A stretch of 33,769 nt of DNA from Myxococcaceae bacterium (GCA_003818285.1 RPRB01000033.1:1-33769), one strand, 5' to 3'; shown: positions 17,718-31,687, counted from the stretch's first letter. Numbers and translations are program-made. Notes: generated by a model from the sequence alone, not told the origin.

Positions 17718-18521
17718 ATGCGCAACGCGCTGGCCATCGCCCGCAAGGAGCTGGGCATCTACTTCAGCACGCCGTGGGCCTACGTGGTCTTCACCGCGAT
17801 GCTCGGAATCTCGTCGTTCTTCTTCGTGAACCTGCTGGCCACCTTCAAGGAGGTCCAGGGGCTGGCCCGGGTGTACGGCTGGGCGCGGCTCCCGCCGGAG
17901 TACGGTCTGTTCAAGAACCTGACCGACGGCATCGTGGTCCAGCTCTGGGACGTCATCGGCGTCATCACCCTCTTCGTCGCCCCCTTCCTCTCCATGCGGC
18001 TCTTCGCCGAGGAGAAGCGCAACCGGACCTTCGAGCTGCTGATGACCGCGCCGGTACGGCCCTGGGAGATCGTCCTCGGCAAGTACCTCGGCGGCGTGGG
18101 GGTGATCTGGGCCACCCTCGGCCTGACGATCATCTTCCCCATCACCCTGTCGCTGTTCGGCTCCAGCGAGTCCGGGACCGCGCTGGAGTGGAGCACGGTG
18201 ACCCTCGGCTTCGCAGGTCTCCTGCTCTGGGGCGCCACCTGCCTCGGGGTGGGAATGTTCGTCTCCTCCCTCACCGAGAGCCAGATGCTCGCGGCGTTCC
18301 TCACCTTCGCCATCCTGCTTCCCTGGATGCTCCTCCGCGGTCTGGCCCAGAGCGCCGACGAGCCGTGGCGGAGCATCGCCAATCACCTGTCGTTCAGCTC
18401 GCAGCTGTCCACGCTCTCGCGGGGCGTGCTGGACCTGAAGGCACTGGTCTTCTTCCTCTCGGTGATCCTCTTCTCGCTGCTGCTCACCCATCGCACGGTG
18501 GAAGCGCAGCGCTGGGCCTGA
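17718..18521 (+). CDS. ABC-2 type permease, GldF-type
   Basis: A 267-residue integral membrane protein with about six helices. It begins with the amphipathic [18 protein letters not shown] typical of GldF/NosY-like ABC-2 permeases, followed by the cytoplasmic [19 protein letters not shown] coupling motif after the second helix. The last helix ends just before the stop ([20 protein letters not shown]). It would form the channel powered by the ATPase encoded 23 bp upstream and work with the GldG-like protein encoded 3 bp downstream. In Bacteroidota GldA/F/G support gliding, but relatives are widespread in non-gliding bacteria, so a role in motility is not implied by this gene alone. Confidence 0.92.
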
Positions 18522-18524
18522 CCG

Positions 18525-20096
18525 ATGAACACCCGCACCCTGGGAAAGATCCTCGGAGCGCTGGGGCTGGTGGCACTGCTCTCCGCCCCCTACACCTACT
18601 TCGTGACCACGGGCTCCCCGTGGATGGCGGCGGTCAAGGCTGCGCTGGGCGTGCTCCTCATCGGTGCCTACTTCGCCACCAACCTCGGAGAGTTCGGGCA
18701 GTTCGCCTCGCGCCGGAGCACCTTCTACCTGGTCTCCACCATCGCGACCGTCCTCGTGGTGCTGATCGGTCTGGTGGCGGTGAACTACGTCACCGCGAAG
18801 AAGGGCAAGAGCTGGGACCTCACCACCAAGAAGATCTTCACCCTCGCCCCCCAGACCAAGAGCGCCCTCGCCTCCTTGAAGGAAAAGGTGCGGGCCTACG
18901 CCTTCCTCGCCCCGAGCGATCCGGATTACGAGCAGGTGGACCGGCTGCTCCAGCGGTACCGGGAGCTGGCGCCGGACCGGTTCGAGGTGGTGTTCAAGGA
19001 CCCGCGGAAGGCCCCCGACCTGGCGCAGAAGTTCCAGCTGCGCGAGGGCCAAACGACGCTGGTCCTCACCCGCGGCTCGGGTGACAAGGAGAACCACACC
19101 ACGGTGTCGGTCTCGGGCGGGGTCACCGAGCAGGACCTCACCAACGCGCTGATCAAGCTGAACGCGGTCGGCGAGCAGAAGGTCTACTTCACCACCGGGC
19201 ATGGCGAGTGGCCGCTCGAGCCCAGTCAGCCCCGCGACCCCGGCTCCCTGAGCGAGCTGCGGAAGACGCTGCTCCAGGAAGGCTACGTTCCGAGCACCAT
19301 CAACCTCGCCGACGGCAAGGAGGTCCCGAAGGACGCCGCGCTGGTGGTGGTGGCGGGCGCGCGGAGCAAGTTCGGAAAGACCGAGGCGGACCAGCTCGGG
19401 AAGTACCTCGAGCAGGGCGGCCGGATGCTCTACTTCGCCGAGGCCTCCGCCGAGCCGGGGCTGGACGCCGTGCTTGCCCGGTACGGCATCCAGGTCGACC
19501 CGGGGCTGGTGGCCGACGACGTCTACGCCATCGACAGCCCGTACCTGGTGGTGTCGCACTTCTTCGGCGACACCGAGCTGGCCCGCGACCTCAAGAAGGC
19601 CCAGTACAACCTCCAATTCCCCACCGCGCGCGGGCTGACCGCGCTCAAGGAGGGCCTGGCGGAGGGGACCGAGGTCGCGGCGGTCCTCACCACCTCGCCC
19701 AACGGGTTCGAGGTGAAGGCTCCCACCGAGAATCCGCAGCGGCAGAGCGGAGCCAAGGCGGGAAGCATCCCCCTGGTCCTCCAGGCCACCCGGAACGTGG
19801 GGAGCGCGGAGGGGAAGCGGAACGACGAGATGCGGCTGGTCGTCTTCGGCGACTCGGAGATCCTGGTCGACCAGAACTGGGGCGACGAGCCCAACCGGAA
19901 CATGGTGATGAACGCCTTCGCCTGGGCGACGAGCCAGGTGCAGAAGATCACCATCCGCCCGCCGGACCGGGACATCTCCACCATCGACCTGGACGCGCCC
20001 CGGCTGGCGCGGATCCGGTTCCTGGCCACCGACCTGGTGCCCTTCGGGCTGCTCGCCGTGGGGCTGGCGATCTGGCTGAACCGCCGCAACAAGTGA
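18525..20096 (+). CDS. GldG-like ABC transporter auxiliary protein
   Basis: A 523-residue membrane-anchored protein. Three helices occur near the N-terminus (ILGALGLVALLSAPYTYF, AAVKAALGVLLIGAYFATNL and YLVSTIATVLVVLIGLVAVN), then a large periplasmic domain of the ABC_transp_aux type (LTTKKIFTLAPQTKSALASL, KVYFTTGHGEW, ADQLGKYLEQGGRMLYFAE), and a final helix LVPFGLLAVGLAIWL before a basic tail. This is the architecture of GldG-type subunits, which look like degenerate substrate-binding or scaffold parts of the exporter. It starts 3 bp after the permease stop and is followed after 1 bp by the DUF4340 gene, so the set is translated together. Confidence 0.9.
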   Translation: MNTRTLGKILGALGLVALLSAPYTYFVTTGSPWMAAVKAALGVLLIGAYFATNLGEFGQFASRRSTFYLVSTIATVLVVLIGLVAVNYVTAKKGKSWDLTTKKIFTLAPQTKSALASLKEKVRAYAFLAPSDPDYEQVDRLLQRYRELAPDRFEVVFKDPRKAPDLAQKFQLREGQTTLVLTRGSGDKENHTTVSVSGGVTEQDLTNALIKLNAVGEQKVYFTTGHGEWPLEPSQPRDPGSLSELRKTLLQEGYVPSTINLADGKEVPKDAALVVVAGARSKFGKTEADQLGKYLEQGGRMLYFAEASAEPGLDAVLARYGIQVDPGLVADDVYAIDSPYLVVSHFFGDTELARDLKKAQYNLQFPTARGLTALKEGLAEGTEVAAVLTTSPNGFEVKAPTENPQRQSGAKAGSIPLVLQATRNVGSAEGKRNDEMRLVVFGDSEILVDQNWGDEPNRNMVMNAFAWATSQVQKITIRPPDRDISTIDLDAPRLARIRFLATDLVPFGLLAVGLAIWLNRRNK

Positions 20097-20097
20097 C

Positions 20098-21555
20098 ATG
20101 AGCGCCCGGAGCAAGAACCTCTGGACCCTGCTGGGGGCGGCGGTGGTCGGCACCGGCCTCGCGCTCTACGCCTACTTCGGGGTGATGAAGGGCGAGGAGA
20201 AGAAGGACGAGCAGAAGCGCGCCGCCGAGCGACTGGTCCAGCCCGTGTCGCGCCCGGACGGCGGCACCGACACGGTCCGCTACGACCGCCTGGTGGTGAA
20301 GGCGAAGGGCGAGACCACCGAGCTCGCGCGGCTGCCCGACCAGTTCTGGGTCATCACCCGCCCGCTGAAGACCGCCGCCGACGTGCAGACCGCCGAGGGG
20401 ATCGTCAGCGCGCTCCAGTTCGCGCGGATCCGCGCGACGGTGGAGGAGAAGCCGACGCCGGAGGACCTCCATCGGTTCGGCCTGGACAAGCCGGGCGTGG
20501 AGGTCGTCGCTTCGGCGGAAGGAGTTCCCCCGCTGACAGTGCGCCTCGGGGTGGAGAACCCCTACGACGGAAGCGCGTACCTGCAGCGCGAGGGGGATCT
20601 CAAGGTCTACTCGGTCGACGGATCGACGCGGTCCAGCCTGGACAAGGGCACGTTCGATCTCCGCGACCGGGACGTGCTCGCGGTCCGGGACCTGGGCATC
20701 ACCCGCATCGAGGTCCGTGGCAAGAAGCGCGACTGGGCCGTGGGCCGGGACCCGGGGCAGCCGTACGCGTTCGTGCGTCCGGCGAGAGAGGATGCGGACA
20801 CCGCCGCCATCTCCGGGTGGCTGAGCTCGCTGCGGGGCACGAAGGCCACGAAGTACCTCCCGGACAGCCCGGCCGAGCGAAAGCGCACCGGGGTGGAGAA
20901 GCCGGTGGTCGAGGCGACCTTCCAGCGCGGGACCACCGAGACGGTCCGGGTGCGGCTCGCCGCCGGGAAGGCCGAGACCGACCCGGTCTACGTGCTGCGC
21001 GAGGACCAGTACGGGCCCGCACTGGCCGAGGTGCCGCGGGCCGCGCTGGCGGCGCTGGACAAGAGCCCGGCCGAGCTGCGCGATCGCTCCGTCCTCCGAG
21101 CGAAGCCCGAGGACGTGAGCCGGATCCGGATCGGCAGCGGCGATGGCGCGCTCGTGCTGGAGCGCCAGCGTCCGGCGGACGGCGGGCCGGAGAGCTGGCA
21201 CGTCGGCGGTCCGACCGGGGCAGTCGCGGACTCCTTCAAGGCCAGCTCGCTGCTCTACAACCTCACCTCGCTCCGCTCCCAGGCGACCGAGGAGAAGCTT
21301 CCGACCGACCCGAAGTCGACCGGGCTCGGGCCCACGGCGCGGACGCTCGTGTTCGAAGGGCAGGACGGAAAGACGCTCGGCAGCATCGCGGTGGGCGGGA
21401 CGTCGAAGAAGCCGGCCGGGACCTTCGTGCGGGATGACCGCGGCCGGGTGGTGGTCATCGACAGCGCGCGACTCAAGGAGCTTCCGTCCAAGGCGGCCGA
21501 TCTGCTACCACCGCCGCCGCCCGCTGCTCCGGTGGGTGCAGATGCCGGAAGCTGA
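20098..21555 (+). CDS. DUF4340 domain-containing protein
   Basis: A 485-residue protein with one N-terminal membrane helix (NLWTLLGAAVVGTGLALYAY) followed by a charged region and a large extracytoplasmic part made of repeated beta-rich units. FWVITRPLKTAADVQTAEGI and the later YDGSAYLQREGDLKVYSVDG are the typical DUF4340 repeats. The C-terminus is Pro/Ala-rich. DUF4340 genes regularly follow gldG-like genes, and here the ATG is one base after the GldG-like stop. The function of the domain is unknown; it probably completes the periplasmic side of the transporter. Confidence 0.9.
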   Translation: MSARSKNLWTLLGAAVVGTGLALYAYFGVMKGEEKKDEQKRAAERLVQPVSRPDGGTDTVRYDRLVVKAKGETTELARLPDQFWVITRPLKTAADVQTAEGIVSALQFARIRATVEEKPTPEDLHRFGLDKPGVEVVASAEGVPPLTVRLGVENPYDGSAYLQREGDLKVYSVDGSTRSSLDKGTFDLRDRDVLAVRDLGITRIEVRGKKRDWAVGRDPGQPYAFVRPAREDADTAAISGWLSSLRGTKATKYLPDSPAERKRTGVEKPVVEATFQRGTTETVRVRLAAGKAETDPVYVLREDQYGPALAEVPRAALAALDKSPAELRDRSVLRAKPEDVSRIRIGSGDGALVLERQRPADGGPESWHVGGPTGAVADSFKASSLLYNLTSLRSQATEEKLPTDPKSTGLGPTARTLVFEGQDGKTLGSIAVGGTSKKPAGTFVRDDRGRVVVIDSARLKELPSKAADLLPPPPPAAPVGADAGS

Positions 21556-23096: not shown

Positions 23097-23330
23097 CTCC
23101 GCCGTCGCCCCCGTCGTGAGTCCCGAAGCAGCTCCAAGGACCTATGCACGCGAGCTGACCCTGCGGAGGCCAGCAGACAGTTGCGGGACCTCGACTGTGT
23201 GAAGCCGGACCACCGATTCACGCCCCGTGCGGCCCCGTGTGGGAGCAGGTAGGACCCTGACGTTCGCTTTGCCCGGAAGGGATGGCTCGCGGTCCAGGGG
23301 TCTGTGCGAAGAGCCTCCCCGGAGATCCGA
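23097..23330. promoter_or_regulatory. Divergent intergenic region before the caspase operon
   Basis: This 234-bp gap lies between the leftward epimerase gene and the rightward five-gene operon and must hold both promoters. The ribosome-binding GGAG (23321-23324) of the first lipoprotein gene is clear. No convincing -35/-10 pair or ECF-type promoter could be picked out by eye, and no gene is seen. Confidence 0.4.
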
Positions 23331-25382
23331 ATGACTCGTTCCGTCCTGGCTGCCGTGCTCCTGAGCGCCGTCCTCACCGGATGTTCCAGCGACTCGGGCA
23401 GCAACGGGGTTCCCGCCCCGCGGGGCATCGACCGCAACCCGCTCCTGACCCAGGTCACCAGCTGCAGCCAGCTCGAGACCGCGATCGAGGACGCGCTGGT
23501 GCTGGAGATGAAGAGCAGCCTCGAGCAGCTCCGGAGGTACGACTACTACATCGGCGACTGGGGGATCCCGGTCGGTGCCGGCGCTCCCGGCGGCCCGATG
23601 GCCGGACCGAGTGGCGGCGGCGGGCCCACCAGCGTCAGCAGCACCAACACCCAGGTGGCGGGCGTGAACGAGGCCGACTTCGTCCAGAACGACGGCACCC
23701 GCATCGCAGTGCTGGCCGGAGGGAAGCTTCATCTCCTCTCCTCCTGGCCTCCCGAGGCCATGGCCGAGACCGCGAGCCTGACGATCGACGGCTGGCCCCG
23801 GGACATGTTCCTCGTCGACGACCAGGTGGTGGTCTTCAGCAACGTCTACATCCCACGGAAGATCGAGGGTGACCATCCGATCTGCGCTCCCGGCGGGGGC
23901 ATCGCGGCGGATGCGTACTGCGGCTACTGGGCGAGCGACGTCACCCAGATCACCACCGTGGACGTGAGCGATCTCTCGCAGCCGAAGATCACCGCCGAGA
24001 TCCTCCTCCCCGGCTCGTATCTCTCGGCGCGGAGAATCGACCAGCGGGTCCGGGTGGTGATGTCCGACACCCTCCCCTTCCCCGACGGGATCCGGTACTG
24101 GCCGGATCTTCCACCGGGCGCGACCCCCGAGCAGCGCAACAAGGCGTTCGACGAGCTGGAGGCCGCCAACGAGGCGCTCATCCGCAGCCGCTCCCTCGAC
24201 GACTGGCTCCGGAAGGGTGAGGTCCGCATCCCCGGCGGGCCCACCACGTCGATCTCCTACTCCTGCTCCGAGTTCTCCCTCAGCTCCGCGCCGACCCGGC
24301 CGGGCCTTCTCACCGTGGCCACCGTGGACCTGACCGACGACTCGCTGAAGAGTCGGACCTCCGTGCTCGCCGAGCCGGGCACCGTCTACGCCTCCAAGGA
24401 CACGCTGTACGTCGCCACCTCCCACTGGTGGTGGTGGCCGGAGCTGGGCCAGTCGGACGCCACCTACGTCCATGGCTTCGACCTTCGCGATCCCGACAGG
24501 GCGCCGTACATCGGCTCCGGGACCGTGGACGGCACGGTGCGCGACCAGTACTCGATGGACGAGTCCGCCGGAGCGCTCCGGGTGGCCACCCATCTCACCA
24601 CCCGCGTCGCGGACGGAACTCCCTGGGGCACGCTCAAGGGAGCCAACCGGATCTCGGTGCTGACCCCCGCCGGGGGCTCGCTCCAGCTCACCGGCAAGAC
24701 CGCCGACTACGGGGCGGACGAGCAGACCTTCGGCACTCGCTTCGTGGGCCCGCGCGGCTTTGTCATCACCGCCCGGCAGATCGACCCGCTCTTCACCTTC
24801 GACCTGAGCGACCCCGCCCATCCGACCAAGGTCGGCGAGCTGGAGATGCCGGGGTTCATTGGCTACCTCCACCCGATCGACGACACTCACCTCCTCGGCA
24901 TCGGTCGCGAGCCCGGCACGAGCGGGATGATGCAGCTCAAGGTTGCTCTCCTGGACGTCACCGACCTCGCCGACCCCAAGCTCCAGGCCGTCCAGCTGGT
25001 GGGTCAGGGCTGGTCGTACTCCGACGCGCTCTGGGATCCGAAGGCCTTCACCTGGCTTCCGGCCCAGAAGATGCTCGCCATCCCGTTCGCCGACTACGGG
25101 TCCCAGGACTTCGTGTCCGACCTGAGGTTGTTCCAGGTCGATCCGGCGGCGGGGACCATCCAGGCCAAGGGGAGCCTCTCGATGGCGGACGTGTACCAGA
25201 CCTGGTCCGGCCAGGGCTGGAGCTACAGCTGGTCGCCGTGGATCCGCCGCGGCATCCTCGCCGACTCCGCGGATGGTCAGTTCGTGTACGCGATCAGCGA
25301 CGCGGGCGTCCGCTCGGCCAAGGTGGCAAGCTTGCCGGCGTGGCTCCAGACGGTGAAGTTCCCGCCGCTCGTCTACCCGTGA
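23331..25382 (+). CDS. Beta-propeller domain lipoprotein (COG4880-like)
   Basis: A 683-residue protein. The ATG at 23331 is chosen for its GGAG site and because it starts a lipoprotein signal, MTRSVLAAVLLSAVLTGC, with lipidation at Cys18. The hallmark of the COG4880 secreted propeller family follows: NTQVAGVNEADFVQNDGTRI, then repeated blades such as KLHLLSSWP, ITTVDVSDLSQPKITAEILL, TFDLSDPAHPTKVGELEMPG and LLDVTDLADPKLQAVQLVG. The C-terminal SWSPWIRRGILADSADGQFV closes the propeller. It is probably held on the periplasmic or outer surface of a membrane and binds protein or ligand; no catalytic motif is seen. The stop overlaps the next start as GTGA, making it the first gene of a five-gene operon with an ECF sigma factor and a caspase-like protein. 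Confidence 0.85.
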   Translation: MTRSVLAAVLLSAVLTGCSSDSGSNGVPAPRGIDRNPLLTQVTSCSQLETAIEDALVLEMKSSLEQLRRYDYYIGDWGIPVGAGAPGGPMAGPSGGGGPTSVSSTNTQVAGVNEADFVQNDGTRIAVLAGGKLHLLSSWPPEAMAETASLTIDGWPRDMFLVDDQVVVFSNVYIPRKIEGDHPICAPGGGIAADAYCGYWASDVTQITTVDVSDLSQPKITAEILLPGSYLSARRIDQRVRVVMSDTLPFPDGIRYWPDLPPGATPEQRNKAFDELEAANEALIRSRSLDDWLRKGEVRIPGGPTTSISYSCSEFSLSSAPTRPGLLTVATVDLTDDSLKSRTSVLAEPGTVYASKDTLYVATSHWWWWPELGQSDATYVHGFDLRDPDRAPYIGSGTVDGTVRDQYSMDESAGALRVATHLTTRVADGTPWGTLKGANRISVLTPAGGSLQLTGKTADYGADEQTFGTRFVGPRGFVITARQIDPLFTFDLSDPAHPTKVGELEMPGFIGYLHPIDDTHLLGIGREPGTSGMMQLKVALLDVTDLADPKLQAVQLVGQGWSYSDALWDPKAFTWLPAQKMLAIPFADYGSQDFVSDLRLFQVDPAAGTIQAKGSLSMADVYQTWSGQGWSYSWSPWIRRGILADSADGQFVYAISDAGVRSAKVASLPAWLQTVKFPPLVYP

Positions 25383-26098
25383 GAAGCACCGGAACGGCAC
25401 TCGGCGTCGTGCTCGCGGCGATGCTGGCTTGCGATGCCCAGACCGACCCCGGATACCAGGGGGAGCCCCTGGTGACCCTCCGGGGCCGGGTGGAGAGCAG
25501 CGGAGAGCTTCCCCCGCTCGAGGCGGCGATGCTCTGGCAGCGTGGTCCCCCACCGGGAACGGACGACCAGCAGCTGGCGACCCGCGCGCCAGTCACCTCC
25601 GGGTTTCCGGCGACGTTCACCCTCCGTCTCTACGCCCCGCCTCCGGAGGCCGCGTTCCGCGCGCTTGCCACCGGTGCACCGCGCTGGGCCCGCGCCAACG
25701 CCGCGGCGGTGCCCTACGGGCTCTCGGCTGACCAGGTGCCCAGCCTGCCGACGTCCTACAACCCGAACTACACCTACGACGCCGACCACTGGGTGCTGTA
25801 CGTCGAATCGGACGTCCCGCCGAGCTCGCTGACCGAGTGGTGGCTCGGGGAGGCGCTCGGCGCCGGCTACCACCTGCTGCGGGTGCTCCCCCTCTCCGGT
25901 TGCCTCGCCTCCCCGCAGCTGGAGGCGTGCGTCGCCGACCTGGTCCAGCGGGGCGTGCCCGACGACGGGACGGACGCGCCCGGCACCGCGCGTGGCTTCT
26001 GCAAGGCGCCTTACCGGCTCCAGCCCACCACCCTCGACGAGGCCATCGTGCTCCGGCTCGGTCAGCAGGGCGGCGGGGCCGGCCCGGCTTGCCCATGA
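25379..26098 (+). CDS. Lipoprotein of unknown function
   Basis: A 239-residue protein from a GTG that overlaps the propeller stop by four bases. The N-terminus (VRSTGTALGVVLAAMLAC) is a lipoprotein signal with Cys18 after LA. The mature part has a predicted beta-rich segment (EPLVTLRGRVESSGELPP, FPATFTLRLYAPPP), a Tyr/Asn-rich stretch (TSYNPNYTYDADHWVLYVES) and four Cys towards the C-terminus that could form disulfides (GCLASPQLEAC, GFCKAPY, final AC). No family is recognised. The stop overlaps the ATG of the sigma factor gene as ATGA, so it is translated with the regulators and may serve as their envelope sensor or as a partner of the propeller. Confidence 0.75.
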   Translation: MRSTGTALGVVLAAMLACDAQTDPGYQGEPLVTLRGRVESSGELPPLEAAMLWQRGPPPGTDDQQLATRAPVTSGFPATFTLRLYAPPPEAAFRALATGAPRWARANAAAVPYGLSADQVPSLPTSYNPNYTYDADHWVLYVESDVPPSSLTEWWLGEALGAGYHLLRVLPLSGCLASPQLEACVADLVQRGVPDDGTDAPGTARGFCKAPYRLQPTTLDEAIVLRLGQQGGGAGPACP

Positions 26099-26583
26099 TC
26101 CTCGACGGCGCGGCCATCGCCAGCCTGTACCGGTCGCACGGACACGTGGTGCTCCGCCGTGCCCGGACTCTGCTCGGCAGCGAGCCCGACGCGCGCGAGG
26201 TCCTTCAAGAAATCTTCACCGCGCTGGTGCGCAACCCGGACGCGGTCCGCTCCGCTGGCTCCATCGTCGGCTGGCTATACCAGGCCACGACCCACCACTG
26301 CCTGAACCTGCTGCGCAAGGCGCGCACCGGCGCCCGGGTGCTCGAGCTGCACGTGCGCCCCGGGCTGTCGGAGAGCGGAGGTCCGCGGGGGGAGGCGGCC
26401 GCCGAGGTGCGCCGCCTGCTGGCGCTGCTGCCCGAGGACGTGGCGGCGGCCGTCGTCTACCACCACCTGGACGGGATGACCCACGCCGAGGTGGCCGAGC
26501 TTCTCGGCTGCTCGCGGCGTCAGGTGGGCTACCTCCTCGAGCGCGCCCAGGGGCTCTGGGACCGCGCGGAGCAGACCGCATGA
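26095..26583 (+). CDS. ECF-type RNA polymerase sigma factor
   Basis: A 162-residue sigma-70 family protein with only regions 2 and 4. Region 2 covers about residues 1-75 (IASLYRSHGHVVLRRARTLL, DAREVLQEIFTALVRNPDAV, GWLYQATTHHCLNLLRKART). Region 4 is LALLPEDVAAAVVYHHLDGM followed by the helix-turn-helix THAEVAELLGCSRRQVGYLL. The short linker and size are those of ECF factors. The ATG overlaps the preceding stop as ATGA, and its own stop overlaps the anti-sigma start as ATGA. It is expected to be held inactive by that neighbour and to switch on an unknown regulon, probably including its own operon. Confidence 0.9.
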   Translation: MILDGAAIASLYRSHGHVVLRRARTLLGSEPDAREVLQEIFTALVRNPDAVRSAGSIVGWLYQATTHHCLNLLRKARTGARVLELHVRPGLSESGGPRGEAAAEVRRLLALLPEDVAAAVVYHHLDGMTHAEVAELLGCSRRQVGYLLERAQGLWDRAEQTA

Positions 26584-27296
26584 ACCTCACCGCCACCCCG
26601 CTCAGCTGGAACGCCTGCCTCTCCGCCCTCCGACTCGACCGGTGGATGATGGGAGAGCTCGGCGCCGCCGACGCCGAGACCGTGGGCACCCACGTCTCCT
26701 CCTGCGCGGCGTGCAGCGCCGCCGTGGCCGGCATCCGGGGCGTCCGCGAGGAGGTGCGCGCCCTTCCTCTCCCGGCCGCGCTCGGCCGGCCCGCCCCCCG
26801 ACGCCGGATCCCCGGAGCGGCAGTGGCCGGGCTCGGCCTCGCGCTCGCCGCGTCGCTGGTCGTCGTCCTCCGCCCGCCGCCGGCCGGCGAACGGTCCAAG
26901 GGCGGCGGCCTCGGCCTCACGATGTTCGTCCAGCACGGGGAGGAGGTGCGGCGCGCCGCGCCGGGCGAGACCGTCTCGGCAGGAGACGCGGTCCGCTTCG
27001 CGGTGAGCACGCCCACCCCGGCGTACGTCGCGGTGCTCAGCCTCGACCCGACGGGCAAGGCCTCGGTGTACTTCCCGCAGGCGCCCCGGGCGGCGCAGGT
27101 TCCGGCGGGCACCGAGGTGCCGCTGCCCCTCGGCACGCGGCTCGACACCACCACCGGCGAGGAGCGGCTGCTGGGCATCTTCTGCGCCTCGCCGGTGGAG
27201 CTCGAACCCATCCGCCTCGGCCTCGAGCAGGGCCAGGACGGCATCCCGCTGCCCGCCGACTGTCAGGGTCTCCGGTGGAGCTTCGTCAAGCGCTGA
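26580..27296 (+). CDS. Zinc-finger anti-sigma factor with DUF4384-like periplasmic domain
   Basis: A 238-residue membrane protein. The N-terminal ASD-type zinc-finger domain has H38-x3-C42-x2-C45 (HVSSCAAC), the standard anti-sigma signature. One membrane helix lies at about 79-97 (GAAVAGLGLALAASLVVVL). The periplasmic C-terminal part (about 105-238) resembles DUF4384: AGDAVRFAVSTPTPAYVAVL, then PTGKASVYFPQ, and LLGIFCASPVELEPIRLGL. The protein would bind the ECF factor encoded just upstream and release it on an envelope signal. DUF4384-like modules often accompany caspase-family proteins; here the caspase gene starts 22 bases before this gene ends. Confidence 0.88.
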   Translation: MNLTATPLSWNACLSALRLDRWMMGELGAADAETVGTHVSSCAACSAAVAGIRGVREEVRALPLPAALGRPAPRRRIPGAAVAGLGLALAASLVVVLRPPPAGERSKGGGLGLTMFVQHGEEVRRAAPGETVSAGDAVRFAVSTPTPAYVAVLSLDPTGKASVYFPQAPRAAQVPAGTEVPLPLGTRLDTTTGEERLLGIFCASPVELEPIRLGLEQGQDGIPLPADCQGLRWSFVKR

Positions 27297-28834
27297 TCGC
27301 GCTGTCGCTCGTGCTGCTCCCCGCCGCCGCGGTGGCGCAGGTGGAGCGGTACGCGGTGGTGGTGGGCAACGACGTCGGCGAGCCCCCGGACGTCCCGCTC
27401 CGGTACGCGGAGCTGGACGCGGCGAGGGTCGCGTCGGTGCTCCAGGAGGTGGGGGGCGTCCGTCCGGAGAACACCGTCCTGCTCCAGGGCAAGGACGCGG
27501 CCACCGTGCGCCGGGCCCTCATCGCCGTGAACGAGCGGGTGCGCACCGCGGGCCGGCCCACGGTGCTGCTGGTCTACTACTCGGGCCACGCCGACGCCGG
27601 CGCACTCCACCTCGGCGGCACGCGGCTGGAGCTCGCCGAGCTGGAGCAGCTGGTCCGCGGCTCGGCGGCCGGCTTCCGGCTGCTGGTGCTCGACGCCTGC
27701 CGCTCGGGGGCGCTGACCCGGGTGAAGGGAGGCACGCCCATTCCGCCGTTCGAGATCCACCTCGGCGAGCGGGTGGCCGGCGAGGGGGCGGTGTTCCTCA
27801 CCTCCAGCTCGGCCTCCGAGGACAGCCAGGAGTCGGACGAGCTCAGGGGCAGCTTCTTCACCCACGCGCTGGTCTCCGGCCTGCTGGGCGCGGCGGACGA
27901 GAACCGCGACGGGCGGGTGACGCTCGACGAGGCCTACCGGTACGCCTACGAGACCACGCTCCGCGCCTCCAGCCGGACGCTCGCCGGCACGCAGCACCCC
28001 ACCTTCCAGTACGACGTCCGCGGCTCGGGAGACCTGGTCCTGGCCACGCTCGACTCGCGCTCGCCGACCCGGGCCTGGCTCGAGCTGCCACCGGGGAAGA
28101 GCTGGCTCCTCTTCCAGGAGAACGCCGACGGCGCGGTGGTGGGCGAGGTGGCCAGCGCGGACCGGGTGCGACGGCTCTCGCTGCGGGCCGGTCGGTACTA
28201 TTTGCGCGGCCGCGGGCCGGAGGTGCTGCTGGAGGGAACGGTGGCCGTGGCGCCGGGCAACACCGCGACGGTGGACGAGTCGAAGCTCCAGCGCACGGCG
28301 TACGCGCGGCTGGTCCGCAAGGGCGAGGGCAACCGCGACGCGGTCGTCTCGCTCGAGGCCGAGGCGAGATTCCGGACCTCGCTGGTGAGCGACGCCGGTC
28401 TGTGTCCGGGCGTGGCGGTGGGGGTGGCCATCGCGCTCCGGCCGATCACCCTCGTGCCGCGGGTGGCCTGGTGCCGGACGGGCTACACCAATGACGGCCT
28501 CGCGGCGACGACGGACCAGTTCGACGTGGAGCTGCAGGCCTCACACGTGTGGGACCTGGCCCCGGTGTCCATCGAGGTCGGGCTCACGGTGGGGGCGGCG
28601 CTCTTGAACCAGTCGTTCAAGACCTCGGGCGAGGCCCCGCCGCGAACCACGGCCGCGCTGCAGCTCACTCCGGCGGTGGCGGTGAGCCGGGACCTCGGCT
28701 CGCAGACCTACCTGTACCTGACGGTCGCCGGAGCGACGTACCTCTTCAAGAACGAGTCCACCACGACCGAGACCACGAGCTTCGGGCCGTCCTTCGCCGT
28801 TCGTCTGGCGCTGGGGTTCGGCTACCGCTTCTGA
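27275..28834 (+). CDS. Secreted caspase-family (C14) protein with EF-hand loop and C-terminal beta-barrel-like region
   Basis: A 519-residue protein from the GTG at 27275, preceded by AGGG, with a signal peptide (MELRQALIALSLVLLPAAAVA). The caspase-like domain covers about residues 24-255, with the catalytic His105 in YYSGHAD and Cys142 in LDACRSG. A canonical EF-hand loop, DENRDGRVTLDE, lies at 208-219, so calcium may control activity. A beta-rich middle region follows (260-345). From about 355 the sequence alternates in short beta strands (AVGVAIALRPITLVPRVAW, VSIEVGLTVGAALL, TYLYLTVAGATYLF) and ends LALGFGYRF, the terminal aromatic signature of outer-membrane barrels. Bacterial caspases cleave after Arg or Lys. 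The gene overlaps the anti-sigma gene, so a link between proteolysis and sigma-factor release is plausible but unproven. Confidence 0.88.
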   Translation: MELRQALIALSLVLLPAAAVAQVERYAVVVGNDVGEPPDVPLRYAELDAARVASVLQEVGGVRPENTVLLQGKDAATVRRALIAVNERVRTAGRPTVLLVYYSGHADAGALHLGGTRLELAELEQLVRGSAAGFRLLVLDACRSGALTRVKGGTPIPPFEIHLGERVAGEGAVFLTSSSASEDSQESDELRGSFFTHALVSGLLGAADENRDGRVTLDEAYRYAYETTLRASSRTLAGTQHPTFQYDVRGSGDLVLATLDSRSPTRAWLELPPGKSWLLFQENADGAVVGEVASADRVRRLSLRAGRYYLRGRGPEVLLEGTVAVAPGNTATVDESKLQRTAYARLVRKGEGNRDAVVSLEAEARFRTSLVSDAGLCPGVAVGVAIALRPITLVPRVAWCRTGYTNDGLAATTDQFDVELQASHVWDLAPVSIEVGLTVGAALLNQSFKTSGEAPPRTTAALQLTPAVAVSRDLGSQTYLYLTVAGATYLFKNESTTTETTSFGPSFAVRLALGFGYRF

Positions 28835-29002: not shown

Positions 29003-31687
29003 TCAGGGTCGGGACTCATTCCCGGCCGGCCGCACCAGGCCACGAGCGATGTGCAGATACCCGACGCTGCGCGAGTAAGTGAACGCCACGTGTCGACCGT
29101 CGGGCGTGAGAACAAGTCTCCCAATAGAGGTCACCCCACTTGGATCCGTCGGTCCTACGCTCCGCTCCTCGACTACCTTTCCTGTGCGCACGTCGACACG
29201 GAATCGCCGGAGACGGGCGGGTGCGTGGTCTCCACCCTGGCTAAGCCAGAGGCTGCCGTCGGGCGCACAGCCACGGGGAAGAGCATCGGCGTGGCCGGAT
29301 AGAACCGACACTGTTGCTCCGTCTCTCAACGAGACAATGATGGGCTGCCGGTTCACGTCGCGTAGTGCCACCCAGCGGCCGTCCTGGGAGATACAACCTC
29401 CTGACTCCACGAGCGGTGCGTCGCTGACGCGAACCGGCTTGGAGCCGTCGTCTGCCAGTCGGTAGAGGCGGAAGTCGCTCTCCGGAGGAGTCCGCCCTCC
29501 CACGAGCAGGCCCTTTCCGTCTGGCATCCAGCCTGCCCCGGCGATTTCCAGACCGTGGGTTGCGATTTGTCTGGGCTGACCCGCCCCGGTAGGAAGCGCC
29601 GTCAATCTTGTGCGGTCGGTGGACATGACGAGGGCCCAGCGACCATCGGGGGACAAATCCTGTGGTATTCCCTCCCCCAGCATTTGCGCAGCGGCGCCGT
29701 CTGTCGTCCGCAGCATCGCGAAGGAAGGTTGGAGCGCCTGACCGGTCGGGGCTGCTCCTTGAACCAAGAAGAGGACTTTTTTTCCGTCGCCCGAGAGGGC
29801 GGTGACGCCGTTCAAGTCGCTCCAAGAGAGCAGAGTCTGGGAGCTTGCGCCGTCCCCCGCATAGACGAGCTCCTGACGCTCCAACTCATGGCCGAGGAGG
29901 ACCTGTCCGTCCCTGCTGACATCCTCGAGCCGAAGGTTAGAAAAGCCCCGATACATCTCCCGGGTCTTCCCCCCCAGGCTCACCGCTAACAGGAGATTCC
30001 GTGGCCATCGGCCCCCGGCGAACCAGACCTCGCTGTCATCCGGAGCCCAGGCTACTCCCCGAGTCGTTGGCCATCGGCGACTCAGCGTTCGGGTCTGGCC
30101 CTCCAAGTCGATCACCACCACCTCCCCCATGTCATCAAAGAACACTGGATGGTGGAGGAAGGCGATCCGGTCTCCTCGAAAAGAGAATCGTGGATGCGAG
30201 ATCCACCCGCTCGTTTGGAACAGCACCTTGCCCGGCGGAGATTCGAGGGTGCGGCTTGCTCCGGTGGCCCCGCTCACTCGAACCACTGCGAGCTCTCCAG
30301 CCGGAGACCAATCCGCATATTCGGTATTCTCGAGCAGCTCTCGGGGGACCCCGCCCACGGAGGGCACGCGGGCCAACGTGCCCCGGCGGGCGTAATTTAT
30401 TGAGTTGCGGGGATGGAGAAGAATGGCAAGTTCTCCTGTGCGGGAGACCCCGAGCAAGCTCACATCGGGGAGACCCAGGGCCTGCGGCGAGATGCTCCCG
30501 GACGGCTGGACGAAGACTTCCTCAGGACGGTTCTCGAAGGCGGCGCTGAACGCTACTCGGCCATCGGGGAGGAACCGGGCGCTGCCAATCGTTCCCAAGC
30601 GAAACGTCACCTGCTCGATCTCGGGGACGGGTTGGGCCCCCGGCCCGCGCTGGTGACCGACCGCGAGCCCGACCAGCAGAGCGGCTAGGACTGCCGCGAC
30701 GCCCCCGATGAGCCACACCGCCGGGCGCGGAAGGACGCGTGAAGGGCGGGGGACTGGGCCCGTGGAAGCGGTCGGGTTCCGGAGCAACTCCAGCTCGAAG
30801 GCCAGGTCCGTTGCGGATTGAGGTCGCCGAGCCGGCTCCTTCTCCAGGCAGTGCAGCACGACCTGGGCCACGACCGGGGGCACCTCGGCGGGCAATGGCT
30901 CCGGCTCGTCGCGGAGAATGGCGGAGCCGCTCTCGACCACTGTTGCGCCCGGAAAGGCTCGCTTCCCGGACACCATCTCGTAGACCACCGCGCCGAGGCT
31001 GAAGATGTCCGTCCGCGCGTCCACCGACTCCCCGCGGACCTGCTCGGGCGACATGTAGCCCGGCGTCCCCAGCACCGAGCCCGTTCTCGTCGCGCCGCCG
31101 GTGGGCGTCACGGTGACGTCCATCAGGCCGTGTGGCCCCTTGTCGCGCGCGGCCTCGGCCAGCTTCGCGATGCCGAAGTCGAGCAGCTTCACGTGTCCGT
31201 CGGAAGTGACGAAGACGTTGTCCGGCTTCACGTCGCGGTGGACGATTCCTCGGGTGTGGGCTGCGGCCAGCCCGTGCGCCAGCTGGGCACCCCACTCGAG
31301 CGTCAATTGGAGCGGGATGCGCCCGCGTGAAAGGCGATGCCGAAGTGACTCTCCTTGCAACAGCTCAGTGATGAAATATGGCGCCCCCTCGTAGAGGCCG
31401 AGGTCGTGGACGGCGACGAGGTTGGGGTGGTTGAGCGACCCAGCGAGTCGCGCCTCCTGCTCGAAGCGCCGCACCAGCTCTGGGTCACCGGCCAGAGCGT
31501 CGTTGACGACCTTCAGGGCGACTTCACGCCCTAGCCGGGTGTCCCGCGCCCGGTAAACCTCGGCCATTCCGCCGGTGCCGAGGACCGACAGCACCTCGTA
31601 GGGGCCCAGCCGCGCTCCGGGAGTCAGGCGCACGCCTGGAGACTCTACTGCTGGCGCAAGGGTGTGGAAGACGGGCTGCGCTTGCAC
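29003..31687 (-). CDS. Hanks-type Ser/Thr protein kinase with extracytoplasmic beta-propeller
   Basis: About 894 residues from the GTG at 31687; the GTG at 31633 is an alternative that starts nearer the kinase domain. The kinase domain is complete: glycine loop GTGGMAEVY (37-45), Lys59 in VALKV, the catalytic HRDVKPDN (150-157), DFG (170-172) and GTPGYMSPEQ in the activation segment. One membrane helix (about 324-343) precedes a TolB/WD40-like propeller: DLSPDGRWALVM, AGWMPDGKGLLVG, SQDGRWVALRD and LTPDGRHVAFTY are typical blade motifs. The propeller probably senses an envelope ligand. Codon use in the propeller half is somewhat less GC-rich than in neighbours. It is transcribed behind the phosphatase gene. 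Confidence 0.92.
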   Translation of the reverse strand: MQAQPVFHTLAPAVESPGVRLTPGARLGPYEVLSVLGTGGMAEVYRARDTRLGREVALKVVNDALAGDPELVRRFEQEARLAGSLNHPNLVAVHDLGLYEGAPYFITELLQGESLRHRLSRGRIPLQLTLEWGAQLAHGLAAAHTRGIVHRDVKPDNVFVTSDGHVKLLDFGIAKLAEAARDKGPHGLMDVTVTPTGGATRTGSVLGTPGYMSPEQVRGESVDARTDIFSLGAVVYEMVSGKRAFPGATVVESGSAILRDEPEPLPAEVPPVVAQVVLHCLEKEPARRPQSATDLAFELELLRNPTASTGPVPRPSRVLPRPAVWLIGGVAAVLAALLVGLAVGHQRGPGAQPVPEIEQVTFRLGTIGSARFLPDGRVAFSAAFENRPEEVFVQPSGSISPQALGLPDVSLLGVSRTGELAILLHPRNSINYARRGTLARVPSVGGVPRELLENTEYADWSPAGELAVVRVSGATGASRTLESPPGKVLFQTSGWISHPRFSFRGDRIAFLHHPVFFDDMGEVVVIDLEGQTRTLSRRWPTTRGVAWAPDDSEVWFAGGRWPRNLLLAVSLGGKTREMYRGFSNLRLEDVSRDGQVLLGHELERQELVYAGDGASSQTLLSWSDLNGVTALSGDGKKVLFLVQGAAPTGQALQPSFAMLRTTDGAAAQMLGEGIPQDLSPDGRWALVMSTDRTRLTALPTGAGQPRQIATHGLEIAGAGWMPDGKGLLVGGRTPPESDFRLYRLADDGSKPVRVSDAPLVESGGCISQDGRWVALRDVNRQPIIVSLRDGATVSVLSGHADALPRGCAPDGSLWLSQGGDHAPARLRRFRVDVRTGKVVEERSVGPTDPSGVTSIGRLVLTPDGRHVAFTYSRSVGYLHIARGLVRPAGNESRP

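Follow-up and report, generated by a model that had tools for sequence, protein, structure and literature searches.

In a 33,769-nt stretch of DNA from Myxococcaceae bacterium (GCA_003818285.1 RPRB01000033.1:1-33769; hereafter the window), we examined five overlapping genes that encode two lipoproteins, an extracytoplasmic function (ECF) sigma factor, its anti-sigma protein and a caspase, and we found that the anti-sigma protein and the caspase share a tetrapeptide, (R)-x-K-G, which lies in the juxtamembrane segment of the former and at position Cys+9/+10 of the latter. The sequence comparisons described below suggest that the caspase probably cuts the membrane-bound anti-sigma protein at a motif that is also found beside its own active site, and we lean somewhat towards the view that the locus is an autoregulated ECF operon in which the caspase would serve its anti-sigma protein as a dedicated site-1 protease and would process itself at the same motif. 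ORF (open reading frame) and Pfam analysis confirmed five reading frames on the plus strand whose junctions overlap by 4 (GTGA), 4 (ATGA), 4 (ATGA) and 22 bp, exactly as a first-pass annotation made from the sequence had reported. The features of the locus, in window coordinates, are as follows.

23268-23295, plus strand: ECF-promoter-like element TTTGCC-N17-GGTCC, kept in related loci.
23331-25382, plus strand: propeller lipoprotein (PF09826, Pfam E 3.7e-118), with lipobox Cys18 (LTGC-S).
25379-26098, plus strand: lipo2, a small lipoprotein with no assigned fold; lipobox Cys18-Asp19 invariant.
26095-26583, plus strand: ECF sigma factor with regions 2 and 4 (Pfam Sigma70_r2 and Sigma70_r4_2; NCBIfam TIGR02937 sigma70-ECF).
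26580-27296, plus strand: anti-sigma protein with ZAS residues H38-C42-C45, one transmembrane (TM) helix (about residues 78-97) and a periplasmic DUF4384 domain (Pfam, TM scan, alignments).
26892-26903, plus strand: anti-sigma juxtamembrane residues R105-S106-K107-G108, with a putative site-1 cut after K107 (alignment, motif scan).
27275-28834, plus strand: caspase with signal peptide, C14 domain, beta-domain and predicted C-terminal 8-stranded barrel (Pfam Peptidase_C14; AlphaFold2 (AF2), Foldseek).
27587-27589, plus strand: caspase catalytic His105 (SGH), invariant in homolog alignments.
27698-27730, plus strand: caspase Cys142 and loop CRSGALTRVKG, in which K151-G152 is the putative self-processing site (homolog alignment).
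28343-28831, plus strand: predicted outer-membrane beta-barrel of the caspase, residues 357-519, with C-terminal GYRF (AF2, Foldseek).

The shared motif was evaluated in caspase/anti-sigma pairs from across the Myxococcota. In the segment that follows the anti-sigma TM helix, K-G was found in 73 of 74 distinct pairs, compared to a mean of 22% in shuffles of the same segments, while the longer R-x-K-G was found in 78% of the pairs and in 2% of the shuffles. Control zf-HC2 anti-sigma proteins without a caspase showed K-G in 1 of 18 cases and R-x-K-G in 0 of 18 (a nineteenth listed control, L136, with RLKG, was misassigned and was excluded because it lies in a caspase locus). K-G was also absent from L354, a full-length ZAS/TM/DUF4384 anti-sigma protein whose gene is not followed by a caspase gene over the next 1.4 kb or so. 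The set was then enlarged to 127 caspase/anti-sigma pairs, 109 of which were type A, from families across the phylum, and 107 of these 109 type-A caspases carried K-G at exactly Cys+9/+10. Their partners carried K-G in 105 of the 107 K-type pairs after reading by eye and in 99 by automatic scan; among the eight scan misses K-G lay further along in six (L031, L130, L200, L280, L306, L328), L046 had K-S and L293 had no Lys. In a sister subfamily (CKSYFMVFDRGAGG), the caspase had R-G at Cys+9/+10 in 12 pairs and the partner anti-sigma protein had R-G in 10 of the 12. The sister R-G caspase loci are L311-L323, L334, L336, L344 and L348; L334 has K in both partners (K-G and K-S). A third caspase type (ATCHSGSGKS, or ATCHSG.GKS) does not have the residue, and where it has an anti-sigma partner (L325, L338) this carries a different juxtamembrane motif, (G)IKAAG. 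Within type A, Arg at P3 was also associated between partners (51 RR, 9 xx, 8 xR and 5 Rx; Fisher p 2.7e-4, ignoring the tree).

Both proteins of the pair were also aligned with their homologs. In the caspase, H105 and C142, the His-Cys dyad, were invariant in homolog alignments, and C142, K151 and G152 were invariant across 14 divergent homologs. Close caspase homologs gave no hit when the PDB was searched by sequence, and a diverse alignment was required to reach metacaspase structures; in this structure-linked alignment the invariant residues D48, S103 and D140 aligned with the metacaspase S1 residues, which in TbMCA2 are Asp95, Ser156 and Asp211 (PMC4357240). Since the acidic S1 residues D48 and D140, together with S103, are invariant, a basic residue (Arg or Lys) is expected at P1. 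In the anti-sigma protein, R105, K107 and G108 were invariant in six orthologs, as was the ZAS motif H38-x3-C42-x2-C45, and a TM helix is present; DUF4384 was matched, and the Pfam zf-HC2 match taken alone is below the cut-off. The sigma factor is of ECF type, having regions 2 and 4, no region 3, and an anti-sigma gene downstream with a conserved 4-nt overlap.

The first-pass annotation had overlooked a C-terminal domain of the caspase. AF2 modelling placed eight long strands at residues 357-517, and a Foldseek search with the model returned OmpA, NspA, OmpX and OmpW in addition to true caspases. Complete caspase homologs ended in F, L, W or I in 77 of 87 cases. Because of the barrel prediction and these C-terminal residues, we predict that the caspase is anchored in the outer membrane by an 8-stranded barrel with a hydrophobic or aromatic C-terminus, a prediction of moderate confidence. 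Lipo2 could not be treated in the same way, as its AF2 model was weak (pLDDT, the predicted local distance difference test score, 41) and unfit for structure search; it gave zero Pfam or NCBIfam matches, and its close orthologs were restricted to this locus type. An inner-membrane placement of lipo2 from Asp at position +2 was considered and dropped, since that rule holds for E. coli; in M. xanthus, Lys+2 is the conserved residue (PMC3222651).

We compared the organization of the locus among related genomes. The order lipo2, ECF sigma, anti-sigma, caspase was kept in two families, f1 (G000, G001, G021) and f7 (G041, G078, G079, G080, G083, G084), while in the f7 genome G082 the gene set was divided over contigs; more distant four-gene versions occurred in G105, from the same family, and in G068, from another part of the phylum. 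Orthologs in both families showed 4-nt lipo2/ECF and ECF/anti-sigma overlaps and a 4- or 22-nt anti-sigma/caspase overlap, and since the same overlaps recur they are not due to chance. The propeller gene adjoined the set in 10 of 10 loci with a close lipo2 relative, in 3 as a collinear gene, with propeller/lipo2 spacing of -4 (G000), +2 (G001) and +15 nt (G021), so that the overlap itself is not conserved, and in all seven f7 loci as a divergent gene head-to-head with lipo2. In the tree, the propellers of both arrangements formed one clade (support 0.99), which included the unlinked copy of G045; the simple reading of this clade is a single ancestral locus whose orientation changed once. Propellers also lie directly downstream of triads of ECF, anti-sigma and caspase genes at two loci of G009, and 1.7 kb downstream of a triad in G010; these fell in a separate clade, indicating that a second propeller-triad association arose. 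The triad loci with downstream PF09826 propellers of the separate clade are L043, L106 and L049. Lipoprotein-like genes with the lipo2 N-terminal domain lie directly 3' of many triads (L036, L038, L041, L054, L058, L103, L104 and L110). The conserved operon is thus the four genes from lipo2 to caspase, and the propeller is a conserved neighbour.

It had been proposed that the five genes are made as one unit, with separate transcripts for the lipoprotein and regulator parts as the counter-indication, and a search for synteny across Myxococcota had been suggested. That search upheld the unit for four genes, which are conserved in two families, and the triad is phylum-wide; the five-gene collinear order was seen in three loci, and in 7 of 10 loci the propeller is on a separate divergent transcript. 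The counter-indication therefore holds in part in f7, where the propeller is nonetheless adjacent and has the same promoter-like element. Caspase profile matches (E <= 1e-10) were obtained in 163 of 195 Myxococcota genomes, a count that takes in the sister subfamily, with several in many genomes and up to 14 per genome, and in closely sampled genomes ECF and anti-sigma genes preceded most type-A matches; the general remark that ECF and caspase genes occur near each other was therefore borne out and understated the case.

The promoter-like element has the consensus TTTGCC-N17-G(G/T)TCC, and its copy in the window lies 35 nt 5' of the first start codon of the operon. It also precedes the G021 propeller and, in the f7 loci, lipo2 (the G079 copy deviates, with GTTGCC and a 16-nt spacer). 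In 6 of 7 f7 loci a further, oppositely oriented copy stands before the divergent propeller, with a spacer of 17 except for 16 in G082. The distant lipo2 of G068 is preceded by a similar element, and none is present upstream of the unlinked G045 propeller. The exact pattern occurred 6 times in ten genomes, 6 of 6 at this locus, a count that serves as a specificity check and not as independent discovery because the pattern was derived from these same loci. A genome-wide scan of the ten genomes allowing one mismatch gave 29 matches compared to 6 for the reversed pattern, with no convincing regulon beyond the locus. With the element before both transcripts, the operon and the propeller appear to be co-regulated in both arrangements, and we infer that TTTGCC-N17-GGTCC is recognized by the operon's own sigma factor.

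These data suggest the following model. The anti-sigma protein would span the inner membrane, its ZAS domain retaining the sigma factor on the cytoplasmic side and its DUF4384 domain facing the periplasm, while the caspase would be exported and tethered to the outer membrane through its C-terminal barrel. An envelope signal would activate the caspase; candidates are failed or altered barrel assembly, with loss of barrel insertion an attractive one, or ligand binding by the lipoproteins. The active caspase would process itself after K151 (TRVK|GG) and make the site-1 cut in the anti-sigma protein after K107 (RSK|GG), only a few residues beyond the membrane. Release of the sigma factor would follow through the usual intramembrane protease and cytoplasmic proteases. 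The sigma factor would then transcribe its own operon and the propeller from TTTGCC-N17-GGTCC, a positive feedback that would enrich the envelope in caspase and lipoproteins. In the simplest reading, one active site with a basic-residue S1 pocket would cut the loop behind its own cysteine as well as the anti-sigma protein. The gene set and its linkage, the common promoter-like element and motif, and the conserved catalytic and S1 residues are observed, and the barrel is predicted; cleavage, its direction and its trigger are inferred. A surface-to-transcription pathway in which the caspase or the lipoproteins control release of the sigma factor had been suggested earlier, and such a pathway under control of the caspase is now the best-supported reading, through the K/R-G motif. 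It is possible, though on balance doubtful, that the pairs make up a phylum-wide class with one caspase per anti-sigma protein, a co-evolving tetrapeptide (K-type and R-type) and a barrel that would act as a sensor, holding the protease from its substrate until assembly fails.

Several observations weigh against this model. The putative site lies 8-26 residues from the inner membrane, and access by a caspase held in the outer membrane is not obvious; the AF2 model that predicts the barrel is moderately confident (mean pLDDT 61, six sequences). L316 and L318 have R in the caspase and Lys in the anti-sigma protein and break the K/R matching, and the pooled K/R-type association (Fisher p 1e-12) overstates the independent evidence because the matching rests on two clades. 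About ten K-type caspases had no detected anti-sigma protein in the examined stretch, some of them at contig ends, and the anti-sigma hidden Markov model was seeded from K-G-bearing sequences. In L358 (L358:1111-2880), a K-G anti-sigma gene (ZAS/DUF4384, LGVKG) is followed by a secreted metalloprotease and no caspase. The metalloprotease has the zinc motif HESGHFLGLAH, and the arrangement is a possible exchange of the site-1 protease.

The caspase could instead be mainly an effector of the sigma regulon, in cell death or envelope remodelling, that does not act on the anti-sigma protein, with the two K-G motifs unrelated, one a structural loop of the caspase and the other a membrane hinge. Its place as the last operon gene behind the promoter-like element fits such a role, and bacterial caspases are often discussed in the context of cell death (PMC8195603, PMC7475262). 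However, the motif is common to about 110 divergent pairs within an otherwise variable segment, changes jointly in the sister subfamily and is missing in control anti-sigma proteins, and we regard this explanation as unlikely; a stress or cell-death circuit, which had also been put forward, found no direct support at this locus.

The motif mimicry itself would suit a pseudosubstrate, in which the anti-sigma segment, bound in the active site where the K-G loop of the caspase would otherwise lie, holds the caspase inactive as long as no other protease has removed the anti-sigma protein, so that control would run from anti-sigma protein to caspase; the prodomain loop of gingipain R, which puts an Arg into the S1 pocket (PMC4357240), is a parallel. 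We consider this quite improbable, since it needs a further site-1 protease, whereas a protease and an anti-sigma protein encoded by one operon are more simply enzyme and substrate. There is very little likelihood that the genes are linked through shared descent and operon drift only, with separate functions for the lipoproteins, sigma pair and caspase: although the propeller lies away from any triad in several genomes (e.g., G045) and on a separate strand in f7, it stays next to the set at 10 of 10 lipo2 loci in spite of the orientation change, the element precedes both transcripts in most, and triads are retained across the phylum.

The operon is bounded on both sides because its neighbours, a divergent epimerase gene on one side and a convergent Ser/Thr kinase gene on the other, lie on the opposite strand; the kinase (29003-31687, minus strand) has C-terminal WD40-like repeats. 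The caspase is the sole C14 match of the source genome. Elsewhere in the window (17718-21555, plus strand), consecutive ABC-2 permease, ABC_transp_aux and DUF4340 genes resemble a gliding-type ABC transporter set.

For most bacterial caspases the natural substrate is unknown, and discussion usually centres on cell death. Here a single substrate, a single scissile bond and a single physiological role, that of an anti-sigma site-1 protease, are suggested by the sequence alone. Much of the Myxococcota shows this pattern several times per genome, and the K-type and R-type pairs offer a built-in specificity test. If this is true, secreted bacterial caspases in these organisms would have signalling, rather than death, as a principal role.

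The proposed system resembles E. coli sigmaE/RseA/DegS-RseP in its ECF sigma factor, single-pass anti-sigma protein, predicted periplasmic near-membrane site-1 cut and link to an outer-membrane barrel. DegS, a serine protease that has a PDZ sensor, is encoded apart, whereas the candidate protease here is a caspase of the same operon, fused to a predicted barrel. In TonB-dependent cell-surface signalling an outer-membrane barrel likewise controls an anti-sigma and a sigma factor; however, the barrel here is predicted to be small, 8-stranded, OmpA/OmpW-like and protease-fused, and no TonB-dependent receptor or signalling domain was among the Pfam domains of the five genes, which sets the locus apart. 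A search of the available literature for the ECF/DUF4384/caspase combination gave zero matches, and only the precedents listed here were found. In the ECF54 group, a protease gene (CHAT or other) beside the sigma gene is proposed to control the sigma factor (review, PMC8999054); the group is proposed to have no anti-sigma protein, whereas the present set includes a ZAS/DUF4384 one. Caspase genes of TRADD-N/EACC2 neighbourhoods lie near ECF sigma genes in multicellular bacteria, but as conflict-system components, and a word search of that report yielded no mention of anti-sigma, DUF4384 or lipoproteins (PMC8195603). The type III-E CRISPR system CASP, in which the caspase-clan protease Csx29 cuts Csx30, an inhibitor of the ECF factor CASP-sigma, is a precedent for a caspase-clan protease acting against an ECF inhibitor; in the available part of that source it differs in being cytoplasmic and RNA-activated, with an inhibitor that is not a membrane ZAS protein, no barrel and no shared K-G motif reported (PMC10028731). 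The present set is not of the CASP (Csx29-Csx30) type, as Pfam matched neither CHAT nor TPR to the caspase and detected no Cas genes among the five. The caspase itself is like orthocaspases and metacaspases in its C14 fold, His-Cys dyad and conserved acidic S1 residues predicting Arg or Lys at P1, and the orthocaspase MaOC1 self-activates at an Arg (review, PMC7475262); unlike them, it is predicted to be exported and barrel-fused, and it is encoded together with an anti-sigma protein.

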